Source of the DNA: an uncultured Clostridia bacterium
GTDB lineage: Bacteria > Bacillota > Clostridia > TANB77 > CAG-508
DNA: 33,561 nucleotides
Reading direction: 5' to 3'
Assembly (NCBI GenBank): GCA_944388895.1
Contig: CALXKR010000003.1
Span: 1 to 33,561, forward strand
Below are positions 5,409 to 33,163 of the stretch, one piece after another. The translations under genes were made by a program, and so were the position numbers. The notes below the pieces were generated by a model. The model saw only the letters and a program-made list of their open reading frames with translations, did no database searches and was not told where the DNA came from. Positions within the stretch are counted from its first letter, which is position 1; each line of letters begins with the position of its first letter.

Positions 5409-5669
5409 TTATCTTGACTCTACAATAAGCCTTATTCCTGTTCTATCTTCACCTTCAACCTCAACTTCTGCAAAGGCTGGTATACAAATTAAATCTACTC
5501 CTGTTGGCGCAACAAAACCTCTTGCTATTGCCACTGCCTTTACTGCTTGATTTAGCGCTCCTGCTCCAATTGCTTGCATTTCTGCCTTTCTTGTTTCTTT
5601 TACCATTCCAGCGATTGCTCCTGCTACTGAATTTGGATTTGATTTTGATGAAATTTTTAAGACTTCCAT
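5409..5669 (-). CDS. spoVS: Stage V sporulation protein S
   Basis: SpoVS is an 86-aa Alba-fold protein, very conserved in spore formers and needed for spore coat and cortex steps in Bacillus. The whole protein matches the family: MEVLKISSKSNPNSVAGAIA at the start, then an ALNQAVKAVAIARGF helix and the FAEVEVEGEDRTGIRLIVES end. A GGGAGG lies seven bases upstream of the ATG, and the gene has its own promoter and terminator, so it is monocistronic. A second open frame overlapping it (to 5778) is a shadow. Confidence 0.97.
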   Translation of the reverse strand: MEVLKISSKSNPNSVAGAIAGMVKETRKAEMQAIGAGALNQAVKAVAIARGFVAPTGVDLICIPAFAEVEVEGEDRTGIRLIVESR

Positions 5670-5712
5670 TTTTTCCTCCCTTAATTTTTATTTGTTTGTA
5701 ATTACGAATATA

Positions 5713-5741
5713 TTTATATACCATTTTTTGGTAGTTGTCTA
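5713..5741 (-). promoter_or_regulatory. spoVS promoter
   Basis: TAGACA and TATAAA on the minus strand are 17 bases apart, about 45 bases upstream of the spoVS ATG. A SigH-type promoter, expected from Bacillus spoVS, is not obvious. Confidence 0.5.
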
Positions 5742-5801
5742 GTATTTTTTTCAAAATTAAGGAAGTTTTCATCGACATTTTTTTACATATTTTGTCAGTT
5801 T

Positions 5802-6566
5802 TTATATATTTATTCTATATATTTCCTTTGTTCGACAATTATTGACATCTATATCAAATATTATTCCATTTAATATACTATTTCCTTCTGCTAATTTATA
5901 TTTTTCTGGAAGAGAAGTTATAAATCTTTTTAATGAAGCTTTTATATCCATACCTATAACAGATTTTTCAGGTCCTGTCATTCCTATATCAGTAATATAC
6001 CCTGTTCCATTTTCTAATATTTTTTCATCTGCTGTTTGTACATGTGTATGTGTTCCAAACATAGCAGAAATTCTTCCATCTACATAATATCCCATTGCAA
6101 TTTTTTCTGCAGTAGCTTCTGCATGAAAGTCTAATATTTTTATATCAGCTTCTATGTTTTTTAATAAGTTATCTATGCAAGTAAATGGATTGTCAGATAG
6201 TACTCCCATATCAGTTCTTCCTATTAAATTTATTACAGCAACTTTAATACCATTTTTTTCTATAACAGTATAGCCTTTTCCTGGAACTCCTTTTGAATAA
6301 TTTGCAGGTCTAATTATTTTAGGATTGTCAATAAAAGTAAATATATCTTTCTTACCCCATGTATGATTTCCCATAGTAATAACATCTATGTTTAACTTGT
6401 TTAATTCATTAAAGTTTTTTGTTGTCATTCCCATTCCACTGGCTACGTTTTCACCATTTACAATTGTAAAATCTATATTCTCTGCTTCTTGCAAATTTTG
6501 TAAATTCTTTTTTAATTTTTCTAGTCCACTTTCTCCAACTAGGTCTCCTATTGCCAAAATTTTCAA
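5802..6566 (-). CDS. ymdB: TIGR00282 metallophosphoesterase (YmdB)
   Basis: YmdB is a di-metal phosphodiesterase; the Bacillus enzyme hydrolyses 2',3'-cyclic nucleotides and affects biofilm and motility gene expression. About 254 aa. Metal-binding motifs run along the sequence: ILAIGDLVGESG at the N-terminus, NGENVASGMG (about 38-47), MGNHTWGKKD (about 66-75), the DFHAEATAEK segment and FGTHTHVQTADEKIL. I chose the TTG at 6564-6566, eight bases after GGAGG, which gives the usual MKILAIGD start; the upstream ATG at 6581 would put the ribosome binding site inside the gene. It follows rny, as in Bacillus. Confidence 0.94.
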   Translation of the reverse strand: MKILAIGDLVGESGLEKLKKNLQNLQEAENIDFTIVNGENVASGMGMTTKNFNELNKLNIDVITMGNHTWGKKDIFTFIDNPKIIRPANYSKGVPGKGYTVIEKNGIKVAVINLIGRTDMGVLSDNPFTCIDNLLKNIEADIKILDFHAEATAEKIAMGYYVDGRISAMFGTHTHVQTADEKILENGTGYITDIGMTGPEKSVIGMDIKASLKRFITSLPEKYKLAEGNSILNGIIFDIDVNNCRTKEIYRINI

Positions 6567-6698: not shown

Positions 6699-8240
6699 TT
6701 ATTTTGCATAGTCAATTACTCTTTTTTCTCTAATCATGTTGATTTTAATTTGTCCTGGATAATCCATTTCATTTTCAACTTTTTCTGCTATATTTCTAGC
6801 CATTATTGTCATTTCATCATCTGATATTTTTTCAGGTTTTACAATAATTCTTATTTCACGACCAGCTTGTATAGCATAAGATTTTTCTACTCCTTCAAAA
6901 GAATCTGCAATAGATTCTAGTTGTTCTAGTCTCTTGATATAAGCATCTAATGTTTCTCTTCTTGCTCCTGGTCTTGAAGCTGAAATTGCATCTGCTGCTT
7001 GTACCAAATATGCTTCTGGAGTTTGAGGTTCTACATCTCCATGATGAGCTTCTACTGCATTTATAATTCTAGCATCTTCTTTGTATTTCTTTAATATTTC
7101 TACTCCTATTTCTACATGAGTTCCTTCCATGTCATGGTCTAAAGCTTTTCCTATATCATGTAGTAATCCTGCTCTTCTTGCAAGTTTAGTATCTAGTCCT
7201 AATTCGTCTGCCATAATTCTTGCTAAATTAGAAACTTCAATTGAATGATTTAATACATTTTGACCATAGCTTGTTCTGTATTTTAATTTTCCTAATAGTT
7301 TTACAATATCTGGATGAAGGTTAAGCACTCCTGTTTCCATAACTGCTCTTTCCCCTTCTTCTTTGATAGTTTTAGCAACTTCTTCTTTTGCCTTTTCTAC
7401 CATTTCTTCGATTTTAGCTGGATGAATTCTTCCGTCATCTATAAGCTTTTGTAAAGCTATTCTTGCAACTTCTCTTCTTAAAGGATCAAAACCAGAAATA
7501 ACAACTGCTTCTGGAGTATCATCTATTATAAAATCTACACCTGTTAAAGTTTCTAAAGCTTTAATATTTCTACCTTCTCTACCAATAATTCTTCCTTTCA
7601 TATCATCGCTAGGAAGTGCAACTATTGATACAGTTGATTCAGAAGTGTGATCTGCTGCACATTTTTGAATTGCATAAGTAATAACGTTTCTTGCTGTTTC
7701 TTCTGACTTTTCCTTTATTTGGTCTTCCATAGCTTTAATACGTTCAACTTTTTCAGTTGTAAGCTTTTCATCAACCTTTGCCAATAATTGATTTTTGGCT
7801 TCATCAATTGATAGTCTTGCAATTCTTTCTAGTTCATCTAATTGTGAGTCTTTTAACTTTTGAACCTCCATCTTTTCATTTTCGATTTCATCTTCTCTTT
7901 TGTCTAATTGCTTTTCTTTTTGTTCTGCAGAGTAGATTTTCTTTTCTAGATTTTCCTCTTTTTGTAATAATCTTTTTTCTTGTAATTGAATATCACTTCT
8001 TCTTTCTCTAATCTCTTCCTCTAGTTCGTTTCTACTATTAATAATTTGCTCTTTTGCCTTAACTATTTCCTCTTTTCTTGTATTTTCTGCTTCTTTTTTA
8101 GCATTTTCTAATATTCTTTGTGCTTCTCTTTCTGCACTTTGAATTTTTGCTTCAGCAGATTTTTTTCTAACCATGTATCCTATAACTGAAAATATTATTG
8201 CTGAGACTAGAAAAATAGTGATATAAATTGCTAATTGCAT
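6699..8240 (-). CDS. rny: Ribonuclease Y
   Basis: RNase Y is the membrane-bound endoribonuclease that starts mRNA decay in Firmicutes. The 513 aa begin with one membrane helix (about 1-20), then a long coiled coil rich in E, K and Q (about 25-190), a KH RNA-binding domain with [15 protein letters not shown], and an HD domain with the catalytic [12 protein letters not shown] and the later [12 protein letters not shown] chose the ATG at 8238-8240, six bases after GAGGTG; a GTG at 8249 overlaps that site. It is followed by its own terminator and then ymdB, the same order as in Bacillus subtilis. Confidence 0.98.
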
Positions 8241-8353
8241 ATTATACACCTCTTTCTATTAAGTTTTCAATGTTCAAATATATATAAATTATAAATATAT
8301 TCTACCTATAATATTTTATTATTATTATTAAAATATGTCAAGGGGTAAAAAAT

Positions 8354-8381
8354 AAAAATAGGTAATAACTTACCTATTTTT
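8354..8381 (-). terminator. xerD terminator
   Basis: Perfect 12-bp arms (AAAAATAGGTAA and its complement) with a 4-base loop lie one base after the xerD stop, with a T-rich tail on the minus strand. Confidence 0.85.
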
Positions 8382-8382
8382 G

Positions 8383-9264
8383 CTAAGCTCTTGGATGAGC
8401 CTTTTTATATATGTCTTTTAGTCCAGGATCTTGAAATTGAGCATATACTTGTGTTGATGAAATATCTGAATGTCCAAGCATTGCTTGAATTGATTTTAAA
8501 TCAGCACCATTTTGTAATAAATGTGTTGCAAATGAATGTCTTAAAACATGTGGTGTTATGTCCTTTTCTATATGTGCTTGTTCTTTATAATATTTAACTA
8601 TTTTCCAAAAACCTTGTCTTGTAAGTCTAGAACCATTAACATTTACAAATAGTGCTTTGTTACTTTCATCTTTTATAAGTATTGGTCTAGCTTCTTCTAC
8701 ATATTCTTTTAATGCACTTTCTGCTAATACTCCTAAAGGAATTGTTCTAGTTTTTTTACCATTTGAACAGGTTACTGTATCTTCTTCAAAATTAACATCA
8801 TCAATGTTTAAATCTATAATTTCTGTAACTTTCATTCCAGTAGCATAGGCGAATTCTAGCATTGCCTTATCTCTAGTTCCTTTTAAGTCAATGTCTTTTG
8901 GTTGTTCTAACAAAAGTTCTACTTCTTCAGAAGTTAATACACTTGGTACCTTTTTTTCTATTTTTGGTGATTGTATTGATACTGTTGGATCTGCTTTAGC
9001 CTTTTTGGTTCTTAATAAAAATTGATAGAATGATCTTATTGATGCAAGGCTTCTTGAAGCAGTTGAAGTTTTCTTTCCCTCTTTTTGTAATTCTTTTAAA
9101 TAATTTTTAATGTCTTCTTCTTTAGCTTTTGCATAATTAATGTTGTTAGCATTAACATAATTTCTAAATTGCATTATGTCTCTTTTGTATGACTGTAAAG
9201 TATTGTTTGACAATTTTTTATCGTTTTGTAAGAATTCTAAAAAAAGTTTAATCTGTTTATCCAT
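8383..9264 (-). CDS. xerD: Tyrosine recombinase XerD
   Basis: XerD-type recombinase (293 aa) that resolves chromosome dimers at dif. The N-terminal SAM-like domain (about 1-85) and the catalytic domain (about 105-290) are complete. Visible catalytic positions are a Lys in the NGKKTRTIPL hairpin, HVLRHSFATHLL (His and the second Arg), the GHSDIS histidine and the nucleophile in STQVYAQF. The first catalytic Arg, normally in ATGLRVSEL, reads Lys here (ATGMKVTEI, K145). That is unusual and could lower activity or be a lineage variant. The gene lies next to spoIIM, as in Bacillus. The start has GGGGAG five bases upstream. Confidence 0.93.
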   Translation of the reverse strand: MDKQIKLFLEFLQNDKKLSNNTLQSYKRDIMQFRNYVNANNINYAKAKEEDIKNYLKELQKEGKKTSTASRSLASIRSFYQFLLRTKKAKADPTVSIQSPKIEKKVPSVLTSEEVELLLEQPKDIDLKGTRDKAMLEFAYATGMKVTEIIDLNIDDVNFEEDTVTCSNGKKTRTIPLGVLAESALKEYVEEARPILIKDESNKALFVNVNGSRLTRQGFWKIVKYYKEQAHIEKDITPHVLRHSFATHLLQNGADLKSIQAMLGHSDISSTQVYAQFQDPGLKDIYKKAHPRA

Positions 9265-24018: not shown

Positions 24019-24065
24019 TGGAGCCACCAGCGAGAATCGAACTCGCGACCTACAGGTTACGAACC
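24019..24065 (-). pseudogene. 3' half of a tRNA-Thr(CGU), candidate attachment site
   Basis: On the minus strand this reads GG-TTCGTAA-CCTGT (anticodon loop and 3' stem), AGGTC, a perfect T-arm GCGAG/CTCGC and acceptor TGGTGGC-TCCA. Everything upstream of GG is missing: no 5' anticodon stem, D-arm or 5' acceptor strand. Truncation at the anticodon loop next to an integrase gene is the mark of tRNA-targeted tyrosine-recombinase integration, where the displaced 3' half stays at one end of the element. This makes 24,057-24,063 the likely crossover and puts the element to the right. Confidence 0.85.
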
Positions 24066-24175: not shown

Positions 24176-25489
24176 TTATGCAATTTTTCTAATAATTCTG
24201 ATTTTTCCCTTTATTTTCCCTTTATAAATAATTGGTGTTTTCTTTTCTTCTTTCAGGATATTATTCTTATAAAATTCTTCTATTTTTTTATTTTCTTCTT
24301 TTTCAAATTCAATTAATAAATGGGTATATCTATCTGTCATTCTTGAAGTTGAATGTCCTAATAATTTTTGCAAATATTTTACAGAAATTCCAGCTTCTAA
24401 ACATCTTGTAGCAAAGGTATGTCTTAATTGATGTACTCCTATATGTCTAAATCCAATCTGTTTTAAATATCTACTTAATTTTGTCCATAAAAAATCTGCT
24501 TTAATTCTATTGCCTTTGCTTGTCAAAAAAAGAGGTTTTCCCTTAAGTTCTGCTATAGACTTTATGTTATTAACTTTCATATATTCTTCTCTATATTTTT
24601 TTAATAACTCATATGCTCCAAATAGCATTGGTATTTTTCTTACACTACTCTCTGTTTTCAAATCACTTTCTTCAACTGTATTTTTTTGTCTTTTTAATTC
24701 TTCAGTGAATAGTGCAGTACAAACTAAACCATTTCTAACCATTACTATTCTATTTTTAAAATCTATATCATCCCAGTCAGAACCTGCTGCTTCACTTGCT
24801 CTTTCTCCTGTTTTTAGTAAAAACAAATAAACTGTAAATTCATATTTATGTGCAAGTAAATTTTCAAATTCTCTTTGTTCTTCTCTTGACATTATTTCTG
24901 GTTCTTTAACTCTTAATTTAGGTGGATCTACTTTTTGCACACAATTACTTTTTAATAAATTATTTTTTATTGCCGCTTCAAAAGCCATATTTAGAACACA
25001 ATATGTATCTTTTATTGTTTTAGGTGCTAACTGTTTTTTAGTAGTTTTACATTGTCCTGTTTTCATTTTAGTCAATATTTGTTGAATATGAATAGGTTGT
25101 ATCTTTTGTAATTCATATTTTCCTATTTCAGGAACAATATATTTTGTGATTGCAATAATATAGGAACTTAAAGTGTTATTATTGACTACTCCTCTTTTAT
25201 ATGTATTTATCCACTTTTTTAGCCATTCTTCTACAGTTATGTTATTACTTAAAATATAAGAATTATTTTCAGATTCATTTTTTATTTGAGCCATTTTTTG
25301 AATAACTACTCTTTTATCCTTGTCGCTGACAGATACTTGTTTTTTTATTCCATCAATTTCTATTGTAACTCTTCCTTCATATGAGTTACCTTTTTTTCTA
25401 ATTGACCCTTCGCCTTTATTTCTTCTTTTCACATCACCTAATTTCTTTTTACTCTTTTTTTCTTTTATATCATTTTTTTCTTTACTCAC
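24176..25489 (-). CDS. Tyrosine integrase, Tn916-like
   Basis: A 437-aa site-specific recombinase that would insert and excise the element. It has a basic N-terminal arm-binding domain (GEGSIRKKGNSYEGRVTIE), a SAM-like core-binding domain (TVEEWLKKWI...) and a catalytic domain with all key residues: R in LKTGERASEAAG, K near RKIPM, H-R in GVHQLRHTFATR, H in LLGHSTSRM and the nucleophile Y in DRYTHLL. I chose the GTG at 25487-25489, six bases after GAGGTG; an upstream ATG at 25552 lacks a site. Its stop is 110 bases from the truncated tRNA, as expected for an integrase beside its attachment site. Confidence 0.93.
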   Translation of the reverse strand: MSKEKNDIKEKKSKKKLGDVKRRNKGEGSIRKKGNSYEGRVTIEIDGIKKQVSVSDKDKRVVIQKMAQIKNESENNSYILSNNITVEEWLKKWINTYKRGVVNNNTLSSYIIAITKYIVPEIGKYELQKIQPIHIQQILTKMKTGQCKTTKKQLAPKTIKDTYCVLNMAFEAAIKNNLLKSNCVQKVDPPKLRVKEPEIMSREEQREFENLLAHKYEFTVYLFLLKTGERASEAAGSDWDDIDFKNRIVMVRNGLVCTALFTEELKRQKNTVEESDLKTESSVRKIPMLFGAYELLKKYREEYMKVNNIKSIAELKGKPLFLTSKGNRIKADFLWTKLSRYLKQIGFRHIGVHQLRHTFATRCLEAGISVKYLQKLLGHSTSRMTDRYTHLLIEFEKEENKKIEEFYKNNILKEEKKTPIIYKGKIKGKIRIIRKIA

Positions 25490-25589
25490 TAAAATCACCT
25501 CGTAAATATGTTTTAGTAGAGTTAGAATATATTTGTACTTATTATTATACATCTATTCTTCTACTAAAAAAAGCTCAAAAAAAATTTTT

Positions 25590-25994
25590 TTAATATTTAA
25601 TAAAATTCCCTATATTCTTGGTCATCCAGTCATTTATTCCTAATTTATTTATTAAAATTCTTCTCTTAAATTTCACACATGGGAAATCAGGCAATTTTAC
25701 GAGTTCGGCAACTAACTGTTTACTTACTCCTAAATATTCTGCACATTCTTCTATAGTCATTCCTATTTTTTCAATCCCTGTATTTATTGTTATTTTATTT
25801 TTTCCTTCTTTTATTAATATTTCTTTCATTAGTTTCATTAACATATTCTCATCTTTATATACTTCAAACATAGTTCTTATTTCTTCAATTACATCTTCAA
25901 CTGTTCTCTCTTTATTAGCACTATGAAAAATGCTATGAAATGCCATTACTATATAGCCTATACAGCATTCTCTGTTTATATAAATTCTTTCCAT
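25590..25994 (-). CDS. Excisionase-like DNA-binding protein
   Basis: A 134-aa protein upstream of the integrase in the same direction. The C-terminal half (about 80-128) is a winged helix of the excisionase type: MTIEECAEYLGVSKQLVAEL, then LPDFPCVKFKRRILINKLG and a closing INDWMTKN helix, the layout of Tn916-like Xis proteins. The N-terminal half (1-75) is extra relative to Xis and unrecognised; it has two cysteines and charged helices and may regulate excision or bind a partner. GGAGG lies nine bases before the ATG. Confidence 0.75.
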   Translation of the reverse strand: MERIYINRECCIGYIVMAFHSIFHSANKERTVEDVIEEIRTMFEVYKDENMLMKLMKEILIKEGKNKITINTGIEKIGMTIEECAEYLGVSKQLVAELVKLPDFPCVKFKRRILINKLGINDWMTKNIGNFIKY

Positions 25995-26036
25995 ATTTTT
26001 ATTCCTCCATTATAAAAAGCCAGTATATAACCTGAC

Positions 26037-26201
26037 TTATTTAGTATTTTTATATTTTTTATTTTTATAATCCCTTAAAAAATTTACCTGTTCTTGATCT
26101 TCCATCATTAGTTCCTTTTCTGATTTATTTTTGTTTCCACCAATTATCACACAAAACATACTTGTTCCAATTAATATTAGTATCAAAATTAATATAAACA
26201 T
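26037..26201 (-). CDS. 54-aa single-span membrane peptide
   Basis: A short gene. An N-terminal membrane helix (MFILILILILIGTSMFCVII, residues 1-20) is followed by a charged tail ending in EDQEQVNFLRDYKNKKYKN. A strong GGAGG sits five bases before the ATG, and the charged 'DEEQ-x-x-x-L' tail is of a kind I associate with small proteins in clostridial mobile elements (from memory, not checked). It lies between the excisionase-like gene and a structured intergenic region. The function is unknown. Confidence 0.6.
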   Translation of the reverse strand: MFILILILILIGTSMFCVIIGGNKNKSEKELMMEDQEQVNFLRDYKNKKYKNTK

Positions 26202-26219
26202 TATTACCTCCGACTTTTA

Positions 26220-26440
26220 GTGTTTTAATTCATTAAATGGTAATCAGCTACATTACTCCTCAGGAATCTAACCTATCTGAACTCAGACTTGTTTTCATTG
26301 CTTGGGACGGTTCTTTCTCGCTCGTGCTATGACTAAACAAGAGTATTATTATTCATCTTTATTAGTTATCGCCTTATCAGTTGCTAACTGATATTTAAGT
26401 TTTATAGTTCTGCATCTATAAATTAAACTAGCTCTTAATA
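26220..26440 (-). ncRNA. Candidate structured RNA or leader
   Basis: The 362-base stretch 26,202-26,563 has no gene but is dense in hairpins on the minus strand: 26,398-26,429 (7-bp stem plus outer pairs), 26,375-26,393 (perfect 8 bp, 3-base loop), 26,288-26,341 (7 plus 4 bp with a 2-base bulge, closing a purine-rich loop with GAGCGAG and GAACCGTCCC) and a 4-bp tetraloop at about 26,276-26,287. Its base composition is less AT-rich than nearby spacers. It ends at the ribosome binding site of the 54-aa gene. I cannot assign it to an RNA family. Confidence 0.45.
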
Positions 26441-26498
26441 AAGTGTTTATTTAACGAATGTTATTCAATTTTCAATGTGCTTTTTATTCTCAAAATAG

Positions 26499-26536
26499 AA
26501 ATAAGTGAAAGAGTTTTCTTACCCCTTCACTTATTT
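26499..26536 (-). terminator. Terminator after the sigma-like gene
   Basis: Perfect 11-bp arms (AAATAAGTGAA and complement) around a 16-base loop, followed on the minus strand by a T-rich stretch. It separates the sigma-like gene from the structured region. Confidence 0.6.
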
Positions 26537-26563
26537 GCTCACAAAATTTGATTTTGTCCCCCC

Positions 26564-27019
26564 CTATTTTTCAAAAAATTTTTTTATTTTTTTCAAACCT
26601 AGTTGAAGACTCTTTTCTATTTGCTTTTTTTGAACCATTTCTATTTTAGCTAAATCTCTTATTGTAATTTCATTTACTATGTGTAAATCTATTCTTCTAT
26701 ATTGAGCTTCTGTAAGATTTTGCATTGCTTGATTTACTTTTTTTCTCTCTATATTTTTTATAACCGTTTCTTCTACACTTTCCACTGGATCAAAAGCTCT
26801 TTTATATATTTCTTCATCAGTTAATGAAGAATGTTCTAAATATCTACTTGTTTCATTTTTTATCTTTGTATAAGCTTTTTTTGATTTCATATATGTATCA
26901 AATATTTCCTTATCAATTTCAATTCTACAGTCTTGGTTGGCACTATCTACAAATGATATGTAATATTTATCTTCATCCTCTATATATTCTAAAGTATAAC
27001 TATCTACTTCGTATTGCAC
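26564..27019 (-). CDS. Sigma-70 region 4-like regulator of a mobile element
   Basis: A 151-aa protein of the type encoded by orf7 of Tn916-like elements. The N-terminal 60 residues (VDSYTLEYIEDEDKYYISFV) are family-specific; the C-terminal part is a sigma region 4 helix-turn-helix with LTEAQYRRIDLHIVNEITIR, DLAKIEMVQKKQIEKSLQLG and a KKIKKFF end. In Tn916 this module controls conjugation genes; none are in the window. The start is GTG, seven bases after AGGAGG, and a 12-bp palindrome abuts that site. Confidence 0.8.
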   Translation of the reverse strand: MQYEVDSYTLEYIEDEDKYYISFVDSANQDCRIEIDKEIFDTYMKSKKAYTKIKNETSRYLEHSSLTDEEIYKRAFDPVESVEETVIKNIERKKVNQAMQNLTEAQYRRIDLHIVNEITIRDLAKIEMVQKKQIEKSLQLGLKKIKKFFEK

Positions 27020-27032
27020 TGTCCTTCCTCCT

Positions 27033-27059
27033 ATTCATTTCAAATTTTTTGAAATGAAT
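27033..27059. promoter_or_regulatory. Palindrome abutting the sigma-like gene's ribosome binding site
   Basis: ATTCATTTCAAA and its exact complement are separated by three bases. On the minus strand the last arm is followed directly by AGGAGG. It could be an operator for autoregulation or an mRNA hairpin controlling translation. Confidence 0.55.
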
Positions 27060-27092
27060 TTAGGTGGGCTACGACAGTGAAGTTCTATAGTA

Positions 27093-27134
27093 CAAAAAAA
27101 ATCAAGTACACATGAAATAACTGCATACTTGATT
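27093..27134 (-). terminator. Minus-strand terminator with no assigned gene
   Basis: AATCAAGTA and its complement form a 9-bp stem with a 17-base loop, followed on the minus strand by TTTTTTTT. Nothing convincing is encoded just upstream of it, so an unannotated short transcript or a decayed gene is likely. Confidence 0.55.
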
Positions 27135-27225
27135 CGTAAAAAAAGACATAATAATCTTTTAAGGACATATTTTAATATATTAAATTTGCTATATGTAATA
27201 TTATTAGTCAAACCTTTTAACATAT

Positions 27226-27272
27226 AAAACTCCTAAAAGAAAATTGACTTAACAATTTCTAAAAGGAGTTTT
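27226..27272. terminator. Long imperfect hairpin
   Basis: AAAACTCCT pairs with AGGAGTTTT (9 bp), and the pairing continues imperfectly through a GAAA/TTTC stretch to a short loop. It is T-rich on both sides, mainly on the plus strand. With 27,093-27,134 it makes the gene-free stretch 27,020-27,559 a double-terminator region. Confidence 0.5.
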
Positions 27273-27376
27273 TATTTTTTAGGGGATATTATTAACTCAT
27301 CAAAGTCCGAAATATTTATTGTAATTTTCTTTTGTTCTTCATAATTCTTTTGATTAGCCTCCTTTTCAGACCTTGA
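27272..27376 (-). pseudogene. Possible C-terminal gene remnant
   Basis: A 34-codon frame without a start reads like a protein C-terminus (KITINISDFDELIISPKK then stop) and ends right at the hairpin 27,226-27,272, as a real gene end would. An in-frame stop precedes it. The parent gene is not identified; chance cannot be excluded. Confidence 0.25.
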
Positions 27377-27496
27377 TTAAGTTGATTAGATTATATTTTC
27401 TTTTAGGTCTTTTGTGATAGTTGGGTTAAAAAGGGCTATAAAAAGGTAAAAAAAGGCTACTACTTTTTGCTTTTGGCATATATTTCCATTTTAATA

Positions 27497-27525
27497 TTGA
27501 TTTTACATAATATTTGTGATATAAT
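27497..27525 (+). promoter_or_regulatory. Promoter of the Spo0A-like gene
   Basis: TTGATT and TATAAT are 17 bases apart with an extended -10 (TG plus one base), 34 bases before the start codon. Confidence 0.8.
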
Positions 27526-27559
27526 ATCCTCATATTTAAAGCATTTGTGGAGGTTTGCA

Positions 27560-28276
27560 ATGTTAAAAGTTCTAGTAGCTGATGAAAATCATGCAGCAAA
27601 CTTAGATTGCTGTCAATATCTAGCAAATGATAAAAACCTCGATGTACTAAGTACAAATAGTGGAATTAATACTATAAATGCATATAATAATTTTCATCCT
27701 AATGTATTAGTAATAAATTCTGACTTTAAGGATAGGAGTTATACTGAAATACTCAATGAACTTTCTTCTACATCACTTGAAAGACAAAAAACCAATGTAA
27801 TCCTTACTGTAGAAGATAATGGGAAAAGAATTGAATTAGATTTCATGGCTAAAGTTTATAAGTTGTTTTATTCTGTTGACTATGAAAAAATTAGAGAAGG
27901 AATAGAACAATATAACTTAGATAATGTGATTTTTTATGAGCCAAACGAGAAAACTTTAAGTGCATTGTTTTATAAATTGAATTTGTATAACGAACAAACT
28001 GGAGCTAGTTATCTAAAATATGCCATTATACAATCTTATAATAACCAAACATCAACAAAGACCTTAAATGACATTTTTAGTTTAGTTTCCAAAGCATTTA
28101 ATGTTTCCTATAAATCTGTTAGACCTGCAATGAGAAATGCTCTAAAATCTGTAAATAATTATAGAAAAAAATGTGGTAATACTGGGATTTTTAAACTGTT
28201 TGAAAATGAAGACTCAATTACTCCAAAAAATTTTATAAAAATTATAACTAGATATTATATAAAACAAAAAAAATAA
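27560..28276 (+). CDS. Spo0A-like regulator with a degenerate receiver domain
   Basis: A 238-aa protein with two domains. Residues 1-75 look like a CheY-type receiver (MLKVLVADEN with the acidic pair D8-E9), but the phospho-acceptor position after HPNVLVI is Asn (N53), so normal phosphorylation is unlikely. Residues 145-235 match the Spo0A DNA-binding domain: TGASYLKYAIIQSY, then SLVSKAFNVSYKSVRPAMRN, and a LFENEDSITPKNFIKIITRY end. The middle (76-140) is unrecognised. I chose the ATG after GGAGG. It converges on the radical-SAM gene. It may bind DNA constitutively or respond to a ligand or partner. True Spo0A is expected elsewhere in the genome. Confidence 0.8.
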   Translation: MLKVLVADENHAANLDCCQYLANDKNLDVLSTNSGINTINAYNNFHPNVLVINSDFKDRSYTEILNELSSTSLERQKTNVILTVEDNGKRIELDFMAKVYKLFYSVDYEKIREGIEQYNLDNVIFYEPNEKTLSALFYKLNLYNEQTGASYLKYAIIQSYNNQTSTKTLNDIFSLVSKAFNVSYKSVRPAMRNALKSVNNYRKKCGNTGIFKLFENEDSITPKNFIKIITRYYIKQKK

Positions 28277-28315: not shown

Positions 28316-29497
28316 TTATTGGTATTTATACTCTTTATATGCTTCTATAATATCTTTTGCTGTTCCAGCATAAGGTTCTCTTACACAAGCATTTAATTTG
28401 TTATCTGTAATATTTATAACTTCCATTAATTCATTATCAGGTATTTCTCCTATTGTACTGAAACTAGGAAATTGGTCTTGTAATTTTTCTTTTGTCTTTC
28501 TTATAAGTTCTAATCCAGACATATTTGAAAAATTATATTTAGAAAATACTAATTCTGGTTTTAATTCTACTATTTTTTTATATGTATCAATTCCATCACA
28601 AGCTATTCCCACTATATTAATATACTCTAAACTAGAGATAGAATTTACTATTGCTTCTCTTATTGTATCATCATTATGAGCAACGATAGTCCTTATTTTT
28701 CTTGTTTCTGTATCTAATTTATTAATTAAAAATTCCAAATTTTCTTGTTGTAAAGCGTTTGCGAAATACTTATCTTTTCCATTTTGAGTTTGTATAATAT
28801 CTGCATTTGGAAGAACTACCATACTTTTTTCAAATTCACTTTGTTTTTTATATTGAATTATTTTAATATTCTCAAATGTTTTTATTTCTCTTACTTTATT
28901 TTCTAATTCATCTTCAGATATTTCAAATGTTTCCTTGTTTACTAAAGCTTTCTCTCTAATAGGCATAAATTTAAGAAATTTCCACTTTTCAATCTTATAC
29001 TTATTTAAAAATTCTCCTAATTCCTCTAATTGATTTATATTCTTTTTACTAACAACTGTATTAATACCAACTTTTATCTTTTTATTCTTAGTTTTTTCTA
29101 ATAGATTTTTGATTATTTCAAAGTGGTTATCTTCTTTACCTAATGACTTATTTATTTCATTATCAATTGAATCTATTGATAGATTTATTTCATCTAAAAT
29201 ATTTAAAATATCTTCAACATACTCATTATCATTTTTTGATAGAAAAATTCCATTTGTTACTAATTTATTGTGTACTCCATTTAACTTAGAAATTCTCATA
29301 AGCTCATTTACTCTAGGATATAATACTGCTTCTCCACCAGTCCAAGTAATATGGTTTATTCCATTCTGTATTAAATTATTTAATACTTTTTCATTTTCTT
29401 CAAATGATAAATCTTCAATATTATTAAAACCAAAGCAATATTTACAATTTTGATTACATCTTGTAGTTATTTTCCAACATACTTTTTGTTTACTCAT
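28316..29497 (-). CDS. Viperin-like radical SAM protein fused to a pseudo-receiver
   Basis: A 393-aa protein. Residues 1-260 are radical SAM: the cluster motif CNQNCKYC (C14, C18, C21), [11 protein letters not shown] (54-56 GGE), [33 protein letters not shown] and [10 protein letters not shown]. By eye this order, including the 'WK-F' strand, resembles viperin (whose product ddhCTP blocks polymerases) and related proteins, though 'GGEP' is GGEA here. Residues 268-390 are a CheY-like receiver with D276-D277 but Lys (K320) for the phospho-acceptor in [19 protein letters not shown] chose the ATG at 29497: AAAGG lies nine bases upstream and the promoter leaves no leader for the ATG at 29527. Substrate unknown. 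Confidence 0.82.
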
Positions 29498-29531
29498 GTA
29501 TATCAACCTTTCTCTACTATTTGACATAATA

Positions 29532-30455: not shown

Positions 30456-31334
30456 CTATATTTCTAAATATTTTTTAATAAAAATCTTATCTATCTTTGT
30501 TAGATATTTTTCTATATAAATCAAATTAATGTTAACTTCAGGTAATTTTATTGGTAATTTTATTTCATAAAGTTCTCTTTTATTTAATGCTTCTTCTACT
30601 GCCTCTTTCATAACATATCCTATTCCTTGCCCTTGTCTTACTTCTTCAATTCTCATTTCAGTATTATCACATTGTATATCTGCTTTTATTTCTACATTAT
30701 TTTCTCTTAATACTTCAAATAATCTTTTAGTTGAAGTAGATTCCTTGTAATTTAATATGTACTTATATTGTTCCATTTCCTTAAGGTCCTTTATTTCTAT
30801 CAATTCATTAGAAATAAAAATATTATTAATCTTTTTTAAAGTTTTTATAATAAGTTCGTTATTTATATTATCTGGAACAGTATCTATTATTACAAAATCA
30901 ATTATATGCCTTTGTAACAATTGTAATAAACCATTATAGTCTGCTACACTTACTATATCTATTTTTAAATCAGGATAATCATTTCTTACTTTCGTTATAC
31001 ATTTTGATAAATAAAATATTGATATATGAGAAGGACAACCAATTGTAATTTTTGCCTTAGAAATATCATAGTTTTGAATTATTGCATTTTCTGCAAATTC
31101 AAGATCTTTAATTTTGTTATGCATAGAATCATATAGTTCTTTTCCTGCTTCAGTTAGTACTAGACCATCTCTTTCTCTATAAAACAATATTATATCTAAT
31201 TTTTTTTCTAAATTTGTTATATGAGAACTAATCGTCGACTCTGTTAAATATAATTTGTCACTTGCTTCTTTATAATTTTTTGATTCTGCTACTACACAGA
31301 AAATCTTATATAAATTCAAATTAGTATCGCTCAT
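30456..31334 (-). CDS. LysR-type transcriptional regulator
   Basis: A 292-aa LysR regulator. The N-terminal winged helix-turn-helix is clear (FCVVAESKNYKEASDKLYLT, ESTISSHITNLEKKLDIILF, about 10-50), followed by a linker helix and an effector-binding domain (ITIGCPSHISIFYLSKCI; VRQGQGIGYVMKEAVEEA). I chose the ATG at 31334, eight bases after AGGTGG; an overlapping GTG at 31346 is possible. The start lies one base after the stop of the CYTH-like gene, so the two should be translationally coupled. The effector and targets are unknown; it may regulate its own operon. Confidence 0.88.
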   Translation of the reverse strand: MSDTNLNLYKIFCVVAESKNYKEASDKLYLTESTISSHITNLEKKLDIILFYRERDGLVLTEAGKELYDSMHNKIKDLEFAENAIIQNYDISKAKITIGCPSHISIFYLSKCITKVRNDYPDLKIDIVSVADYNGLLQLLQRHIIDFVIIDTVPDNINNELIIKTLKKINNIFISNELIEIKDLKEMEQYKYILNYKESTSTKRLFEVLRENNVEIKADIQCDNTEMRIEEVRQGQGIGYVMKEAVEEALNKRELYEIKLPIKLPEVNINLIYIEKYLTKIDKIFIKKYLEI

Positions 31335-31335
31335 T

Positions 31336-31923
31336 CTATGCACCACCTAATAAAATATTTTTTAATACAATTTCTGCTTTTTTTACAAAATAATCATTAG
31401 TATCTATTGGAAGTTCTAATTGTTTTACTTTATATTTTATTTTTTCTATGGTATCTAATTCTTTATTATCTTCTACAGTTTCAATTTCAATTAATTTTTC
31501 GCCATTTTCTATATCTTTAATTGTAATTTTAAAATCATCTCTCTTATAAGATTTATCATATTCTTTTATATTCATTAATTCTTTATAGCCTATTGCCTCA
31601 ATAAATGCTTTGCCTGCCTCTGCATCTAAAATTTCACAATTGACTTTGCTTTGTTTTAATATATTACCTTTATCATCTATTTGCTTATTTTTGAAAGTTA
31701 ATTTTACTACTTTTCGTTCAGGTATAAATTCTGTAATATTTCTTAATAGTATAGCCTTACTTAATATGTCTCTGTAACTCATATCTTTTAAATCTAATTC
31801 CTTCGGTATAAAATATGTATCATCTAAAATAAATTTTTCTATTATTTTGAAGTTTTTATCTTCTAATATATTGCCAATTTCTTTTATGCTACATTTTAAT
31901 CTTACTGTTATTTCATTACTCAC
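31336..31923 (-). CDS. CYTH-like domain protein
   Basis: A 195-aa protein resembling the CYTH superfamily (CyaB adenylate cyclase, thiamine triphosphatase), which bind triphosphates in a beta-barrel. Suggestive features: an N-terminal charged strand (NEITVRLKCSIKEIG), a 'DDTYF' strand, VVKLTFKNKQ, a SYKRDDFKI strand and EKLIEIETVE near the C-terminus. The usual E-x-E-x-K start is imperfect (E-x-x-x-R-x-K), so catalysis is uncertain. The start is GTG, nine bases after AGGAG. It heads a two-gene operon with the LysR gene and has a good promoter. Confidence 0.55.
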   Translation of the reverse strand: MSNEITVRLKCSIKEIGNILEDKNFKIIEKFILDDTYFIPKELDLKDMSYRDILSKAILLRNITEFIPERKVVKLTFKNKQIDDKGNILKQSKVNCEILDAEAGKAFIEAIGYKELMNIKEYDKSYKRDDFKITIKDIENGEKLIEIETVEDNKELDTIEKIKYKVKQLELPIDTNDYFVKKAEIVLKNILLGGA

Positions 31924-32353: not shown

Positions 32354-32611
32354 ATGGAATTAGCAAAAATAACTACAAAAGGTCAGGTAACTATTCCAAA
32401 ATCAATAAGAGAATTATTAGATTTAAAAGAAGGAAGTAAAATTCTTTTTATTCAGAAAGGAAAAGATATAGTTATTCAAAATGCTGCAATGCTTGCTTTA
32501 GAAAAGATTCAAAAATCTTTTGATGGCGAAGCAGAAAGACTTGGTTTAGAAACAGAAGAAGATGTTGTAAAAATGATAAAAGAATTTAGAAAAAATAGAA
32601 AGAAGGATTAG
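32354..32611 (+). CDS. AbrB/MazE-type antitoxin
   Basis: An 85-aa antitoxin. Residues 1-45 are a SpoVT/AbrB swapped-hairpin DNA-binding domain (AKITTKGQVTIPKSIRELLD, then LKEGSKILFIQKGKDIVI). The charged helical C-terminus would wrap and inhibit the toxin. Such antitoxins repress their own operon. The toxin starts two bases after this stop, the usual antitoxin-first coupling. AAAGGA lies about nine bases before the ATG. Confidence 0.9.
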   Translation: MELAKITTKGQVTIPKSIRELLDLKEGSKILFIQKGKDIVIQNAAMLALEKIQKSFDGEAERLGLETEEDVVKMIKEFRKNRKKD

Positions 32612-32612
32612 T

Positions 32613-33011
32613 ATGAGAGTAATGCTAGATACAAATATTCTTATTTCTGCATTCGTATTTAAGAGCAAAAAGATGAATGAACTAATCCATAAACTTTCCA
32701 AAGAGCACGAAATAATAATTTGCTCATATACAGTTCAGGAACTAAAAGAATTAATAGATACAAAATTTAAAGTAAGTCTAAAAGATTTAGATGAATTTTT
32801 AAAAGACTTCCCGTTTGATTTAGTTTATTCTCCAATGCATGTAGAGAATAAACTATTTGAAATTAGAGATAAAGATGATTATATAATTCTACATACAGCA
32901 ATAATAGAAGATGTTGATGTATTTATAACAGGTGATAAAGATTTTGATAATGTAGATGTAGACAAACCAGAAATTATGAATGCTACTGAATTTTTAGAAA
33001 AATTTTGTTAG
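32613..33011 (+). CDS. PIN-domain toxin (predicted ribonuclease)
   Basis: A 132-aa PIN ribonuclease of the COG1569 type. The four acidic positions are in place: D6 (MLDTNILISAF), E43 (TVQELKELI), D88 (RDKDDYIILHTA) and D108 (FITGDKDF), so it should be active. PIN toxins cleave RNA to slow growth; targets cannot be told from sequence. The AbrB-like partner is directly upstream, and the pair may stabilise the element. A strong terminator follows. Confidence 0.9.
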   Translation: MRVMLDTNILISAFVFKSKKMNELIHKLSKEHEIIICSYTVQELKELIDTKFKVSLKDLDEFLKDFPFDLVYSPMHVENKLFEIRDKDDYIILHTAIIEDVDVFITGDKDFDNVDVDKPEIMNATEFLEKFC

Positions 33012-33087: not shown

Positions 33088-33163
33088 TGGAGCCACCAAG
33101 CAGAATTGAACTGCTGACCTTTGAATTACGAATTCACTGCTCTACCAACTGAGCTATGGTGGC
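33088..33163 (-). tRNA. tRNA-Thr (anticodon CGU), complete
   Basis: A complete 76-base gene with encoded CCA. The acceptor GCCACCA/TGGTGGC is perfect, the D-arm is GCTC/GAGC, and the anticodon loop TTCGTAA gives CGU (reads ACG). The anticodon stem GTGAA/TTCAA has a mismatch at its first pair. The T-arm AGCAG/CTGCT is perfect. It has the same anticodon loop and acceptor as the truncated gene at 24,019 but different anticodon and T stems. Confidence 0.95.

Follow-up and report, generated by a model that had tools for sequence, protein, structure and literature searches.

A Spo0A paralogue encoded on an integrative element in gut Clostridia has probably been turned into a regulator of that element, one that would set excision by means of a row of tandem boxes and the divergent promoter beside them. 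The gene lies in a window of 33,561 nucleotides (the whole stretch of DNA that was analysed computationally), and its product, judged by sequence, is one of a family of full-length Spo0A paralogues, frequent in this order of gut Clostridia, that has not been described before. The product most likely governs the genes by which the element integrates and excises, not sporulation. The family, its gene order, the lost phosphorylation site, the altered recognition helix, the box array and the insertion site can all be read directly from the DNA, and they are described below together with what they suggest about function.

The gene for the Spo0A-like regulator occupies 27560..28276 on the plus strand, with an ATG at 27560, GGAGG just 5' of the start and a stop at 28276, and encodes 238 aa. 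Residues 1 to about 121 form an N-terminal pseudo-receiver and residues about 130-236 a C-terminal Spo0A_C DNA-binding domain, with the recognition helix at 184-205. The first-pass annotation had proposed a Spo0A-type DNA-binding protein here, and the Spo0A_C score bears this out (Pfam PF08769, 31.6 bits against a cut-off of 25). The receiver is far less evident from sequence (Pfam Response_reg, 13.7 bits). In an AlphaFold2 model made with 16 relatives as input (mean pLDDT 87), the receiver, which was the only part compared with VIA-align (residues 1-125), has a receiver fold, with Z of 17-18.6 against solved receivers that include Spo0A 1qmp. A profile search of the PDB with the family alignment found Spo0A as the best match for each half: 9phz and 1dz3 for the receiver (E 4e-14 and 5e-13), and 1lq1 and 1fc3 for the C-terminal domain (E 1e-12 and 5e-12). 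Because both halves match Spo0A structures, the protein is most likely a descendant of full-length Spo0A rather than a spurious match.

The protein thus shares with Spo0A the combination of receiver and Spo0A_C domain and, as far as the candidate operator indicates, a tandem layout of binding sites. It differs in its recognition helix, in its location on a mobile element and in its score against the Spo0A equivalog TIGR02875 (16.9 bits, far below the cut-off of 200). The C-terminal domain is therefore of the Spo0A type, but the resemblance is distant, and the earlier description of it as following Spo0A closely was overstated. The phosphorylatable Asp of Spo0A aligns with Asn53, confirming that the phosphorylation site has been lost. 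Judged by the residues of a phosphorylatable receiver (acidic pair, Asp, Thr/Ser and Lys), the window's protein does not qualify: it has Asn at 53, though the acidic pair Asp8-Glu9 is retained. Across its clade, the acidic pair and partner residues are changed as well. On this alignment, control by Asp phosphorylation is not possible, and since the Asp is absent, activity must depend on the protein's own level or on a protein partner.

Could such a protein act on sporulation? The first-pass annotation suggested that it could occupy host 0A boxes in competition with Spo0A and alter the onset of sporulation in the host. There is something to recommend this idea: the Spo0A_C fold and full-length Spo0A architecture are shared, an effect on host sporulation has been proposed for Spo0A C-terminal domains carried by phages (PMC10294663), and some relatives have 0A-like arrays of TTCGACA or TGTCAAA. 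It is nonetheless highly improbable for the window's protein, because the resemblance to Spo0A is distant and the recognition-helix residues are not those of Spo0A. The source genome, a MAG of 1.3 Mb and 138 contigs with 88% completeness, encodes a true Spo0A on contig C26, with the Asp, a standard recognition helix and a Spo0A_C score of 153.9 bits. This excludes the alternative that the window's gene is simply a divergent host copy in a genome with no other spo0A, and upholds the view that it is a second Spo0A separate from the host's. The sequence SRVERAIRHA, invariant in the host-type Spo0As aligned, is replaced by KSVRPAMRNA in the window's protein, an outcome that the first-pass annotation had itself named as refuting its idea; the aligned recognition regions are TTPSRVERAIRHAIEV for the host Spo0A and VSYKSVRPAMRNALKS for the Spo0A-like protein. 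Spo0A contacts G2, C4 and G5 in the TGTC(G) core of the 0A box (PMC3485338), and this core is missing from the sole tandem array in the Spo0A-like gene's own control region, which is of the AAAAAGG type. A scan of the window found TGTCGAA once, at 5831, outside the element and at the level expected by chance, and the relaxed 0A motif TTTGTCRAAAA showed no excess there. The conserved gene order likewise suggests that the target is the recombination operon of the element itself and not host 0A boxes. For other family members, those with 0A-like boxes, cross-talk with the host Spo0A is possible. The same genome encodes two more Spo0A_C proteins. One, on contig C7 (L002 1462-1827), consists of Spo0A_C only, with no receiver, and resembles truncated phage-borne homologues; the other, a fragment at the end of contig C20 (L003 1483-1920), is a second member of the Spo0A-like family.

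The gene was also placed outside the core genome by the first-pass annotation, correctly, as it lies on an integrated element that splits the host tRNA-Thr(CGT) gene. A comparison of the split tRNA locates its 3' half at the integrase end of the element (24019..24063, minus strand), adjoining ftsY and to the left of the integrase. The 5' half is on contig C64 of the same genome, near its start, broken at the same anticodon-loop core, so the insertion is seen at both element ends. The crossover core, TTCGTAAC(C), lies in the anticodon loop, with TTACGAA at 24057-24063; exact 12-14-mers gave no att direct repeats, and the core was found via the split tRNA instead. In a relative, G017 (L150), an intact tRNA-Thr(CGT) lies upstream of ftsY. 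The element extends from about 24.06 kb to beyond the window's end. A complete tRNA-Thr(CGT) within it (33088..33163, minus strand, ARAGORN) probably replaces the split host gene; tRNA was the only convincing Rfam match in the window. The stem sequence of the element-borne tRNA differs from that of the split gene (L253 1-300 is part of the same comparison), and the L047 element likewise splits tRNA-Thr(CGT) and carries a complete copy (7140-7215). Inside the window's element there is also a pair of genes for a MazE-like antitoxin and a PIN-domain toxin (32354-33011).

Facing the Spo0A-like gene is a set of recombination genes on the minus strand. A tyrosine integrase (24176..25552; Pfam Phage_integrase 94.5 bits, PHROG integrase) is accompanied by an excisionase-type HTH protein (25590..25994; TIGR01764 29.5 bits against a cut-off of 28.8, HTH_17), and the first gene of the divergent operon (26564..27019) encodes a sigma-factor-like protein in the position of Tn916 Orf7. 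The match of the latter to NCBIfam sigma70-ECF is 33 bits, below the cut-off of 42.9; homologues occupy the same place in relatives, and some sigma-like genes there exceed the Sigma70_r4_2 cut-off. The Tn916 module is described with Orf9 as the presumed repressor of orf7, which in turn raises expression of xis and int (PMC7288454). The stretch from 24176 to 28276 has the layout of a Tn916-type module, with a divergent regulator opposite sigma-like, xis and int genes and, in relatives, an HTH_16 gene corresponding to orf8. There are differences: the place of Orf9 is held by a Spo0A paralogue, the recombinases may be of the tyrosine or the serine type, and no conjugation genes were recognised within the window, past whose right end the element continues. 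No HTH_16 gene was recognised in the window, where 26037-26201 is a 54-aa ORF, which is a point against the proposed role of the Spo0A-like protein.

This arrangement is widespread. When the family profile was run against 336 genomes from the order, about 100 or more other members were listed in addition to true Spo0A, counting as members the matches with E of about 1e-29 or better; the true Spo0As identified score lower. About 80 neighbourhoods of Spo0A-like genes were read, and gene order was counted in the 45 non-redundant loci that extend 3.5 kb or more upstream. A recombinase is present on the divergent side in 41 of the 45 (serine in 23, tyrosine in 18), as is a sigma-like gene in 41 of 45; the sigma-like gene is usually first in the divergent operon, often followed by the HTH_16 gene. 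The remaining four loci have no recombinase on that side within the ten genes examined, which speaks against control of recombination by the Spo0A-like protein. In two pairs of elements (L046/L047 and L103/L104), the regulators are identical, yet one element has a serine recombinase and the other a tyrosine integrase, which suggests recombinase exchange; in L046/L047, the adjoining modules are also near-identical. PemK/MazF-type toxin genes lie within the divergent recombination operon in L129 (2758-3342) and its relatives. L137 (approximately 6955-8500) has a tandem pair of Spo0A-like genes with a strong AAAAAAAAGG array and no detectable recombinase on the divergent side. Many elements, L041, L047, L083 and L118 among them, also have on their cargo side a gene for a small XRE-type regulator, which may be a second control gene.

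Between the two divergent promoters of the window lies a candidate operator of three tandem boxes (27429..27459, no strand assigned), located by the 10-bp periodicity upstream of family genes. The boxes are AAAAGGGCTA (27429-27438), AAAAAGGTAA (27440-27449) and AAAAAGGCTA (27450-27459), each with AAAAAGG. Nowhere else in the 33.5-kb window did lag-10 matching peak at the threshold used, and tandem AAAAAGG is likewise confined to the array. Across 62 distinct upstream regions, in a test run after the array had already been noticed in the window's clade, the mean best lag-10 match was 17.3/24, against 13.75 in shuffles and 13.6-14.5 at neighbouring short lags. A score of at least 17 was reached by 37 of the 62, compared with 10 of 138 other intergenic regions from the same loci; these 10 are a caution that AT-rich, low-complexity sequence can appear periodic. 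The repeat differs by lineage, being AAAAAGG(G/C) in the window's clade and AAAAGTGCTG, AAAATCGGAA, AAAACGGAGA or TTGGAGAAAA elsewhere. In one subclade it is TTCGACA, which is the 0A core TGTCGAA read on the other strand, and TGTCAAA occurs in some relatives.

From its position and conservation, we infer that the array is the operator of the Spo0A-like protein. Box similarity tracks recognition-helix similarity (r 0.38, 0 of 2000 permutations), a correlation that includes any contribution of overall relatedness; among pairs less than 50% identical it is weak (r 0.13, p 0.001), again with overall relatedness included. Another protein of the element could bind the array in its place, such as the sigma-like or XRE protein, with the Spo0A-like protein acting elsewhere or being a relic. 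The link between array and protein is indeed indirect, and several DNA-binding proteins are encoded nearby. Still, this is unlikely: the array is present upstream of the Spo0A-like gene with any sigma-like subfamily and its sequence follows the recognition helix, and a relic would not be expected to have a reading frame that is intact and conserved across many species.

How would the Spo0A-like protein control excision? Its gene would be transcribed from its own near-consensus promoter (27497..27525, plus strand; TTGATT-17-TATAAT with TG before the -10), and the divergent operon from a second site (27390..27418, minus strand; ATCACA-17-TATAAT) that has a poor -35 and adjoins the array. Such promoter calls are weak evidence in AT-rich DNA, with promoter-like sites no more numerous here than in shuffles; the -10 region of the divergent promoter is conserved in the close relatives aligned. 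The protein may bind the three head-to-tail ~10-bp boxes as a row of monomers or dimers, with a base preference different from that of Spo0A. Spo0A binds tandem 0A boxes in the same manner. Once bound, the protein would set the opposite promoter and with it the sigma-like gene, the excisionase and the integrase, and would thereby decide when the element excises, a role matching the one proposed for Tn916 Orf9. DNA binding, the genes controlled and the direction of control are all what we infer from the arrangement of the sequence. Activation of the divergent promoter is slightly favoured over repression, because the boxes adjoin its poor -35. The leader of the divergent operon can form a stable hairpin (27221..27272, minus strand; -17.5 kcal/mol, z -2.8), with similar counterparts in relatives, which may terminate or attenuate transcription of the recombination genes. 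The activity of the Spo0A-like protein would be set by its own amount or by a protein partner, for which the best candidate in the window's clade is a pseudo-receiver domain, REC2.

REC2 is found next door. Convergent with the Spo0A-like gene is a gene for a viperin-like radical-SAM enzyme fused to REC2 (28316..29527, minus strand; PADLOC pVip 1.6e-39), in which residues about 12-275 are the radical-SAM part and about 279-403 are REC2, with Lys replacing the Asp. The enzyme shares with prokaryotic viperin (pVip/SAND) the CxxxCxxC radical-SAM core, C24-C28-C31 being invariant in the alignment, and its best PADLOC match is pVip; it differs in the REC2 fusion and in scoring 116.4 bits against NCBIfam viperin NF038283, below the cut-off of 180. 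The usual neighbour of the viperin-REC2 gene is a LysR-type regulator (30456..31346, minus strand, Pfam), and a CyaB/CYTH-like protein is frequent in the cluster (31336..31923, minus strand; TIGR00318 30.9 bits, below the cut-off of 57.95). The direct convergence of the Spo0A-like gene with this viperin/LysR cluster, seen in its clade, raises the alternative that the gene is cargo controlling only the cluster and not recombination. This is decidedly improbable, since relatives have very different cargo (for example, DNA-methyltransferase genes) beside the same divergent recombination operon, and the window has no second box array elsewhere, cargo promoters included.

A reading that can hold alongside control of recombination by the Spo0A-like protein is that its receiver and REC2 form a heterodimer, so that the regulator's activity follows the amount or state of the enzyme, or vice versa, and antiviral output is coupled to excision. 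We regard this pairing as conceivable, though with less than even chances. In its favour, REC2 stays constant while the enzyme part varies: it is found fused to the viperin-like enzyme, fused to another radical-SAM protein or standing alone. REC2 lacks the Asp in every aligned copy (KPEMVFAKYN) and is remotely related to the receivers of the regulators themselves (hhalign 96.9%, E 2e-10). In the window's clade, REC2 is nearby wherever enough sequence is present, usually as part of a viperin-like radical-SAM enzyme; the REC2-linked regulators form one clade (support 100/100), all with degraded receivers. Of the representatives whose receivers are canonical, with acidic pair and Asp, 15 have enough sequence downstream, and REC2 accompanies none of them. 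A second, smaller degraded-receiver group is without REC2. When genome contigs (named MAGs) were scanned starting from the viperin-REC2 enzyme, a Spo0A-like gene was present in 41 of 42 REC2 loci and in 0 of 38 enzyme loci without REC2, counts that show retention and not repeated gain, because the linkage arose once. The one REC2 locus with no Spo0A-like gene, L179, has host-like neighbours, among them a tadA-type deaminase gene. Fisher values for these counts and for REC2 against receiver type are inflated by relatedness and carry no weight as proof. Recombinases, by comparison, vary even with identical regulators (L046/L047, L103/L104). Against the pairing, linkage alone can keep adjacent genes together, and the single origin on the tree allows no independent test of a connection between REC2 linkage and receiver decay. 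There is a precedent for heterodimers of this kind in WhiI/BldM (PMC12632262). WhiI, like the Spo0A-like protein, is a DNA-binding regulator of the receiver type that ordinary phosphorylation does not switch; output domain and setting are different, and the partner of the Spo0A-like protein is a candidate only.

What would this mean for mobile elements and their hosts? First, if the proposed role is correct, a host developmental regulator has been converted to a mobile-element switch. Phage-borne Spo0A homologues without a receiver have been described (PMC10294663), and the family resembles them in placing Spo0A_C domains on the mobile DNA of spore-formers; those homologues are the DNA-binding domain only, whereas the family keeps a receiver, canonical or degraded. 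In the open-licence literature searched, neither viperin-receiver fusions nor a regulatory role of full-length Spo0A paralogues in integrative elements came up. Second, members with intact receivers might allow an element to read the phosphorylation signals of the host Spo0A, timing excision by the host's sporulation decision. Third, a 2025 review (PMC12632262) describes the switching of pseudo-receivers as a mystery, and the family offers a natural series, with canonical and degraded receivers on one architecture, a predicted operator for each and, in one clade, a conserved candidate partner in REC2. A broader and doubtful scenario, which we put forward as speculation, is that integrative elements captured the sporulation master regulator as an excision switch, each lineage with its own tandem-box code, and that one branch swapped phosphorylation for pairing with a pseudo-receiver on viperin-like enzymes, wiring mobility to antiviral cargo.

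The viperin-like enzymes and REC2 also occur in other combinations. Among viral contigs, there was no relative of viperin-REC2. Bacilli MAGs (L213-L218, L220-L222, L224 and L225) have close viperin-like relatives that lack REC2 and have no Spo0A-like gene beside them. In L091, L093, L109, L119-L121 and L123, REC2 is carried by a second radical-SAM type of ~500 aa that is unlike the viperin-like one. Kinases are linked to some prokaryotic viperins, and in L037 a putative sugar/nucleoside-kinase-like gene (5431-6279), so described from an impression of its sequence, lies between separate REC2 and viperin-like genes.
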